41,940 nt of DNA from contig CAIKWD010000029.1 of the NCBI GenBank assembly GCA_903831095.1, forward strand, positions 1 through 41,940, written 5' to 3'. This document shows, piece by piece, positions 15,986 through 21,919 of the stretch. The notes under the pieces were generated by a model that was given only the letters and a program-made list of their open reading frames with translations, searched no databases and was not told the origin of the DNA. This DNA comes from Candidatus Staskawiczbacteria bacterium. GTDB lineage: Bacteria; Patescibacteriota; Minisyncoccia; Minisyncoccales; Staskawiczbacteraceae. A program made the position numbers and the translations under genes. Within the stretch, counting starts at the first letter, position 1. Every line of letters starts with the position of its first letter.

Positions 15986-16528
15986 ATGAAAAATAAAAAA
16001 AGTGTCTCGACTTTAGTTGGCATTATTATAATAATTGCAGTTGTTTTTGTATTTTTTGGGGGTGTTTTGGCATATCAAAATTATGCAAAACAAACAATAA
16101 ACAACTTGCCACAGATTGCAAATAATAACCCTCCAAGCCAACCGCCAGTAATTGTTGGGGGAGCATGTTCTTATTATTCAATTAGTGGCAGATGCAAAAT
16201 AGTTTCAATTGCTAAAACACAAGAATCTATTCAACAAAAATCAACAACAGGATATGAAGGGTTTGATGTTAAGTTTTCTTTTATTCCAGATTCCTCAATA
16301 ATTATTCCTGAAAGTGCCAAAAAAATATTGGCATCTCAAAAATCTCCATATTCTTTGCGCCTTACAAATTCGTGGTACCCTGGCCAACTTTATTTGAATA
16401 AGTACAGCATAAAAGAAAACAGCATATTTGGTTGCCAGGAGATGGTAATTTCAAAAGGCACATGTACTCCTTTGTCTTTCAAATTCAGCAATGTAAATTT
16501 GTCAGATTATTTTGAAGTCAAAAATTAA
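15986..16528 (+). CDS. Hypothetical membrane-anchored protein
   Basis: N-terminal TM SVSTLVGIIIIIAVVFVFFGGVLAYQNY then an extracytoplasmic Cys-containing region. Confidence 0.75.
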   Translation: MKNKKSVSTLVGIIIIIAVVFVFFGGVLAYQNYAKQTINNLPQIANNNPPSQPPVIVGGACSYYSISGRCKIVSIAKTQESIQQKSTTGYEGFDVKFSFIPDSSIIIPESAKKILASQKSPYSLRLTNSWYPGQLYLNKYSIKENSIFGCQEMVISKGTCTPLSFKFSNVNLSDYFEVKN

Positions 16529-16548
16529 TTTATTTTTTTAAAATTACA

Positions 16549-20200: not shown

Positions 20201-21919
20201 TATATATCTCCAAGTCCAAACAATGACGGATCGGATTCCAAAATAAATGAAACAGTAATGTACTTATTTAATAAAGATGGTTCTGTATTGCCTGGATGGC
20301 CAATTTATTTGTCAGCTGGACTTATTAGTTCTTCTCCGGTTGTCGGAGATATAAATAAGGATGGAAAAGATGAAATTGTTGTTGGTTTTACATATTTTGC
20401 TAGCGTATATCCTAATTATAATCTTGGAGGAGTCTATGTGATCGGAAGAGATGGAAAGCTTTTATCTGGATGGCCAGCTAGGCGGGGATTTAGTTACTTG
20501 TCTGCTCCTGCAATTGGAGACGTAAATGGAGATGGATATTTGGAAATTTTTGCTAGTCAAATGGATGATAAAATGTATTTACTTAAATATAATGGCACTG
20601 TAATGTCAGGTTGGCCAAAAGATACAGTTGATATCGATTTGAAAGGATCAATTATGGGAGATGTAAATGCTGATGGAAAATTAGATGTTTTGACAACTGC
20701 AGGAAATGGATTTTGGAATCCACTTGGTAATGGTGGAGTTTATGGTTGGAATATTAATGGGTCAACAATTGCTGGTTTTCCAAAAGTAACAGAATTAAAT
20801 GCTACGGCTTCAGCAACATTGAGTGACTTAGATAACGATGGAAAGACAGAGGTGATAGCAAGTTCTAATATTGATATAGATCAAGGTGGAGCATCTAAAA
20901 ATCGAGGCAGTATTTATGTTTGGAAAACTGATAAAATATACAATCAAGTAAATATGCCTTGGCCAATGTTTATGCATGATCCTCAACATACAGGGTGTTA
21001 TGATTGTAACAGAATGATAGGAATCTGCGGATCAGCCAATGGAGTAAGCGTTACCACAAAACCAGTTGCAAATTTATGTTCATTTGGTGCTGCCACAACT
21101 GTCGCAGGCACCGGACCTTGGACTTGGACTTGTACAGGATTAAACGGAGGAGTTGATGCTTCATGTTCAGCACTGAAAATGGTAAATGGCACTTGTGGTT
21201 CTGTTAACGGAACAGCCGTTACTGTCAAACCAACCACTAACCTTTGTTCAGCAGGCACTGCCACGGTTGTGGCAGGCACAGGCCCATGGACATGGAGTTG
21301 TACTGGGATAAACAGTGGTGCTACAGCCTTCTGTTCTGCCTTAAATTTGATTAATGGCGCTTGTGGTACAGCAGCAACTAGTTATGTTACAACTGCTACA
21401 GCTTATGCAGGAACAATTTGCAAATCAGGAACAGCAATTCCTACAGTTCCATATTTCCCAGGCCAAGGCGGTTCTTCAACCTGGACATGCAACGGAATCA
21501 ACGGAGGAACCAATATCAACTGTACAGCATCCAGAGCTTTCCCTGCATGCAACACAGTTACCATTAGTGGTAAAACATACAAGTTAAGCCCATGCAACCT
21601 TACTGCAACCATGGTTGATGGCCAAGGCGATAAAACCTTCACAACAACCATTGTAGCTACAGGATCATATGGATTCAGTGTTTATGGATATGGAAATGGT
21701 TTTCCAACCTACGGAATTTTAGGTGATTCTAGCGGAGGAGCTTATGGAAACCAGACTTTGAATTTTCACTTTAGTGATTCTATCCTAAATTCCGACGGAA
21801 TCTCTCCAAAAACATACAATGGGTACTTGCCAATACACATATACCAGGGAAGCGAGACTGGAACTGACAACAACTATCTGAATTTTAACATCAACCTTAC
21901 GGTCACTATGAGGCAGTAG
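17297..21919 (+). CDS. Secreted multidomain papain-like (C1A) cysteine protease with PEGA, FG-GAP/VCBS repeats and C-terminal tandem repeats
   Basis: N-terminal signal/TM; [58 protein letters not shown]; PEGA-like [18 protein letters not shown]; seven D-x-[ND]-x-DG-type motifs ([63 protein letters not shown]). Confidence 0.93.
   Translation: [1540 protein letters not shown]

Follow-up and report, generated by a model that had tools for sequence, protein, structure and literature searches.

Genes and features of the locus

Four open reading frames on the forward strand, ORF1 to ORF4, lie between uvrC (reverse strand) and uvrA (forward strand) in the window, by which we mean the whole 41,940-nucleotide stretch of DNA that was analysed; the coordinates of these and other features are collected in Table 1. 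The junctions are, in order, a 20 bp gap, a 4-bp ATGA overlap at 16686 and a 26 bp gap, and downstream of the ORF4 stop we found an intrinsic terminator (hairpin of −32.6 kcal/mol, z −5.3; 0 out of 200 shuffled sequences were equally stable). It is likely that ORF1–ORF4 form a single transcription unit, because the junctions are tight and a very strong terminator follows ORF4. The layout is thus as given in the original prediction, which described an operon of four same-strand genes with tiny or overlapping junctions and a strong terminator at 21945.

A search for promoters upstream of ORF1 gave no convincing candidate. The region is AT-rich, and 11 kb of it contain 86 ORFs of 30 aa or longer, many of them spurious; in GC and GC3 the four genes do not stand out from the window as a whole. 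We considered whether a repeat past the terminator (GCCTGCCGATAGGCGGG) might be a dispersed element and rejected this, since it is unique in the genome. The listed start of uvrA (TTG 22022) is probably too early, because homology starts at residue 28, corresponding to ATG 22103; a hairpin (22043-22096) precedes this ATG.

Table 1. Positions of the genes, protein regions and signals discussed in the text (window coordinates, except for the last two rows, which refer to other loci)
Feature	Coordinates	Strand	Basis or remark
uvrC, left border of variable site	14595..15887	-	sequence comparison
ORF1, 180 aa	15986..16528	+	N-terminal TM segment (~residues 3-34) and 4-Cys ectodomain
ORF2, 46 aa, putative single-TM peptide, tentative gene	16549..16689	+	ATGA overlap with ORF3
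ORF3, 194 aa, orphan class III prepilin / GspG-like pseudopilin (KGFTILELV)	16686..17270	+	N_methyl
ORF4, 1540 aa, predicted secreted C1A protease	17297..21919	+	Peptidase_C1 and FG-GAP matches
ORF4 putative N-terminal TM / signal segment (~residues 15-33)	17339..17395	+	hydropathy peak 2.88
ORF4 propeptide-like region, W-x-A motif IKWKANYN	17681..18043	+	upstream of mature enzyme
ORF4 papain-family catalytic domain (Q276, C282, H440, N460)	18059..18733	+	profile match and alignment
ORF4 Cys-rich D-x-D-x-DGYC...CDDS calcium-type motif	18800..18940	+	sequence comparison
ORF4 PEGA domain	18956..19162	+	E 0.097, under cut-off in this copy
ORF4 FG-GAP beta-propeller	19646..20965	+	FG-GAP E 2.8e-25
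ORF4 three Cys-rich NGxCG / WxWxCxG-type repeats	21026..21595	+	sequence comparison
Intrinsic terminator	~21938-21984	+	3' of ORF4 stop; hairpin >15 pairs
uvrA, right border of variable site	22103..24907	+	probable start ATG 22103, not TTG 22022
T4SS_pilin - C1A - DUF333 set	L211 5709-10275; L214 5981-11260; L215 5204-9937; L217 7060-11301; also L213, L082, L085, L088
T4SS_pilin - C1A fused form	L053 and L086

ORF4 encodes a large C1A protease

Residues 255-478 of ORF4 match Peptidase_C1 (PF00112) with an E-value of 3.5e-54 and 184.6 bits (curated cut-off 20.7), and its four catalytic residues are intact, in columns that are invariant in a 12-sequence alignment; the best sequence matches in the PDB are cathepsins C and B. 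This confirms the C1A protease that had been read from the sequence, and the adhesive-type domains reported with it can be identified as an FG-GAP propeller, a PEGA domain (sub-threshold here) and Cys-rich NGxCG/WxWxCxG repeats. A cell-surface or secreted nature of the gene products is likewise supported, as judged from their sequences.

Several of the ORF4 regions recur in related proteins. The propeptide-like region matched no propeptide family, and its place and motif pattern are common to G004, G040, G183 and L092-L095 (compared by eye). The calcium-type motif is shared with G040, G183, L092, L093 and L095, and with one change with G004, and the PEGA domain is over the cut-off at the equivalent place in G004, L092, L093 and L095. 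The repeats, which fall in the last 300 residues, occur in further large surface proteins that this genus encodes. The predicted structure of residues 229-1240 is weak (mean pLDDT ~61, catalytic domain included), its catalytic part matching cathepsins; the modelled propeller (pLDDT mostly 60-90) has chain B of the KICSTOR complex as its top fold match (E 1.7e-10). We also considered ORF4 as a PilY1/PilC pilus-tip adhesin and rejected this identity: only FG-GAP-type propeller families were matched, and no PilC/PilY1.

The three genes upstream of the protease gene

Judged by its N-terminus (KGFTILELVVAIAIIGILSSIV; GFxxxE followed by a hydrophobic helix), ORF3 is a true class III (type IV) prepilin, as had been proposed: it matches the N_methyl/GFxxxE domain with E-values of 1.8e-8 and 1.4e-7 in Pfam/NCBIfam profile searches. 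Against TIGR01710, the equivalog for the T2SS major pseudopilin GspG, it scores 48.9 bits, below the cut-off of 88.85. T4P assembly genes do co-occur, as the original prediction suggested looking for: a complete cluster is present elsewhere in the same genome (G000:C30; L080), where inspection of the sequences, rather than a family search, showed PilB-, PilT-, PilC-, PilD-, PilM-, PilN- and PilO-like genes together with pilins. The genome thus encodes assembly machinery and a prepilin peptidase.

The N-terminal TM part of ORF1 is similar to many proteins of relatives, and its ectodomain (residues 55-180) has zero matches among 380 genomes of the phylum. TM proteins with an ORF1-like N-terminus are encoded in relatives at the ftsK/orf349 interval (2278-2640 of the window; the homologous place in L076-L079); their N-terminus, KGISTVIGxIIIxxxxxxxFGGVFAYQY, also appears to resemble that of archaeal pilins. 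ORF2 has neither a homologue nor a recognisable ribosome-binding site, and no Pfam/NCBIfam match above cut-off; since spurious ORFs of similar size are abundant, what speaks for it as a gene is only its junctions and its TM character. Matches of ORF1 and ORF2 to OppC_N, DUF4064 and toxin_TsaT were far under the cut-offs and were discarded.

The prepilin and the protease are not paired in relatives

Genes for C1A proteases are rare in this lineage: they are found in two out of 12 genomes of the genus (G000, the genome studied here, and G004) and in 10 out of 247 genomes of the order. The protease gene of G004 lies between tsaE and a polA-N gene without the three upstream genes, and the uvrC-uvrA interval of that genome is empty (103 bp). 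A gene for a GspE-like ATPase also lies close to the protease gene in G004; as it adjoins ruvB, this proximity was judged coincidental. No class III pilin is encoded in the flanking DNA examined for the closest archaeal relatives.

We further scanned 65 C1A loci, drawn from public genomes and from the order, with flanks of varying length that were short for some contigs, and found class III-type pilins at two of them, L132 (Elusimicrobia) and G040 (a pilin match at L052 was a false positive inside a membrane protein); at 13 further patescibacterial loci no class III pilin was found near the C1A gene. In G040 (L053 1571-13724) the C1A gene directly follows a complete T4P assembly cluster, and the protease has T4SS_pilin-like TM segments at its N-terminus. 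The original prediction had joined prepilin and protease in a dedicated module, and had named the protease without its three upstream genes in related genomes as a sign of chance adjacency. Exactly this is seen in G004, a member of the same genus, and the archaeal relatives do not have these neighbours either, so that the module is not upheld. The prepilin is probably just a local neighbour of the protease; like the TM proteins, it is probably a surface protein that is co-transcribed with the protease gene but not bound to it in any lasting partnership.

A variable site between uvrC and uvrA

The uvrA-uvrC interval (15888-22102 in the window; homologous intervals L067-L075 and L184) could be assessed in nine genomes of the genus. 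In G004, G007, G010 and G011 there is little or nothing between the two genes (88-454 bp); in G000, G002, G005, G008 and G009 one or two large ORFs lie there, on the same strand as uvrA. ORFs of at least 400 aa are thus present in five out of nine intervals versus 0 out of 43 neighbouring intervals (p 5e-5; two of the 43 are counted twice, as loci overlap), and the p-value is 4e-4 when the window is left out. The occupants in the other genomes are large, with signal-type N-termini and Kre9_KNH (Ig-like), PKD or peptidoglycan-binding domains, and in the wider family G019 has a 2006-aa TM protein at this site too. We looked for direct repeats flanking the insert and found no convincing pair. In this genus, the space between uvrC and uvrA is a variable site that accommodates large secreted or membrane proteins.

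Archaeal affinity of the protease core

The full-length query (P0004) gave no match among the contigs of the genome collection, so that an alignment of the catalytic domain was needed as the query. Among the matches listed, the best (53%) are from Woesearchaeota (L092) and Pacearchaeota (L093), followed by Diapherotrites and Thermoplasmatota; for other Patescibacteria, those not in the genus, identity to the catalytic domain of ORF4 does not exceed 41%. The core order C1A - DxDxDGYC - PEGA - FG-GAP is common to ORF4, G004 and the archaeal L092, L093 and L095, and the C-terminal tails differ (e.g. B_lectin in G004 and PKD/NosD in L095). L095 aligns to residues 228-1240 of ORF4 at 40.6%, and G004 at a lower 34%. 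The Pacearchaeota protease (L093 9524-12847) ends in a dockerin-like sequence (GDINNDGLITEKDVSDL, seen by eye), unusual for an archaeal episymbiont.

The proteases of G000 and G004 fall, in a tree of 77 rows, within an archaeal clade (support 100/91, 99/91 and 99/95) that is represented by only four rows, all MAG contigs. Forcing all patescibacterial C1A proteases into one clade, a constraint chosen after the first tree had been seen, was rejected (AU p 2.9e-5). The contigs L092 and L093 look archaeal because of their neighbouring genes (archease- and RtcB-like genes on either side in L092 and a Hef/XPF-like gene in L093, recognised by reading the sequences, not by family search). Since the core nests in the archaeal clade, apart from other patescibacterial C1A proteases, the simplest reading of the tree suggests cross-domain transfer with archaea (DPANN/Thermoplasmatota), whichever direction it may have taken and in however many events. 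A foreign base composition was looked for in the four genes and is absent, GC and GC3 being ordinary, so that composition does not point to a recent transfer. G000 and G004 may be sisters in the tree (92/27), and one ancestral gene followed by losses may be an alternative.

A different pilin-protease gene set in other Patescibacteria

A recurrent gene set was observed in other Patescibacteria, in which one or two T4SS_pilin (PF18895) membrane proteins are followed by a C1A protease and then by a DUF333 protein. T4SS_pilin is upstream of, or fused to, C1A at 10 loci, five of which served to build the T4SS_pilin search model, and DUF333 is adjacent or fused to C1A also in DPANN (L099, L106, L142, L159) and Chloroflexi (L156). 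Neither of the T4SS_pilin and DUF333 models built in this analysis matches the window, and we did not find the set in the literature searched. It is a different, apparently conserved arrangement, and may be a better case of a pilin-protease module.

Proposed role of the locus

We favour, with moderate confidence, the explanation that this 6-kb stretch is the occupant of a variable surface-protein site, namely a transferred secreted C1A protease with an exchangeable binding tail, next to a probably unpartnered pilin. ORF4 would be made as a membrane-anchored zymogen and exported via Sec, with the TM anchor, propeptide, catalytic domain, calcium-type motif, PEGA domain, beta-propeller and Cys-rich repeat tail in this order. 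Because the anchor precedes the propeptide, cleavage near residue 250 would both activate the enzyme and free a protein of ~137 kDa, which would then be released or bound solely through its tail. The propeller and the tail may hold the protease on a target surface (its own envelope, a host, prey or matrix), where it would cut proteins, feeding peptides or opening a contact zone; the contact with host or prey cells invoked in the original prediction would be one conceivable setting. The ORF3 prepilin would be processed by the ordinary T4P machinery of the genome (G000:C30) and the TM proteins by T4P/Sec, probably independently of the protease.

A purely nutritional enzyme, released for scavenging and with no surface binding role, as has been proposed for extracellular peptidases of sediment archaea, seems unlikely to us: the large conserved propeller, the exchangeable binding-type tails and the surface-adhesin-like genes that fill the site in sister genomes speak against it, although the protease family is widespread among sediment and groundwater bacteria and archaea (among the matches listed) and sediment Thermoprofundales express extracellular C01A peptidases (PMC6461988). 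We hold it improbable that the locus is a dedicated module in which the prepilin enters a T4P filament and ORF1 and ORF2 mount the protease at, or deliver it to, the tip or contact site. The tight junctions and shared terminator, the complete T4P machinery and the position of the G040 C1A gene would fit such a module, and T4P mediate host binding in Saccharibacteria; but orphan pilins occur there too, one of which, in TM7x, is dispensable (PMC12206443), the neighbours are missing in G004 and in the archaeal relatives, 13 further patescibacterial loci are without a pilin, and the ORF1 ectodomain is unique. Very little credence is given to a pilus-linked proteolytic contact device, in which a protease derived from an archaeal episymbiont or host would be surface-mounted via the prepilin and TM proteins and its tail exchanged at uvrC/uvrA. 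A bin or assembly artefact, i.e. foreign protease DNA joined to the contig, is hardly credible: the genome is a MAG and the closest relatives among the matches listed are archaeal, but the uvrC and uvrA flanks are the genus's own, on a single contig with ordinary GC, and ORF4 has the NGxCG repeats that typify surface proteins in this genus.

These findings bear on the recognition and exploitation of partners by Patescibacteria, a largely open question. They give two leads: a fixed genomic address (uvrC/uvrA) for variable surface genes, at which an exchange of partner-specific proteins might take place, and a secreted protease core that is apparently common to Patescibacteria and to DPANN archaea, whose way of life is similar. 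They also carry a warning, that gene adjacency in a single genome should not be taken for a functional module.

Comparison with known systems

The literature searched contained no paper on papain-like proteases or FG-GAP proteins from Patescibacteria. The catalytic domain of ORF4, with its four catalytic residues, is as in peptidase family C1A (papain/cathepsin B, PF00112), and the N-terminal propeptide-like region may be so too, but ORF4 adds more than 1000 residues after the catalytic domain as well as a putative N-terminal anchor. With the C1A-PEGA-FG-GAP proteins of Woesearchaeota, Pacearchaeota and Thermoplasmatota (L092, L093, L095) it shares the core domain order and 49-56% identity in the catalytic domain; it differs from them in its C-terminal tail and in its gene neighbours, the archaeal genes having no class III pilin nearby. 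ORF4 also resembles the giant surface proteins described in Vampirococcus (PMC8080830) in being very large and predicted to be exported, with adhesion-type domains; unlike these, it carries an intact protease domain.

ORF3, like the orphan class III prepilin of TM7x locus four (PMC12206443), is encoded by a pilin gene that stands alone, apart from the main T4P cluster, although here the gene is immediately upstream of a protease gene. As in the T4SS_pilin - C1A - DUF333 set, a pilin-like membrane protein adjoins a C1A protease in the window; the pilin-like protein of the window is, however, a class III prepilin, the protease belongs to a different C1A clade, and there is no DUF333.
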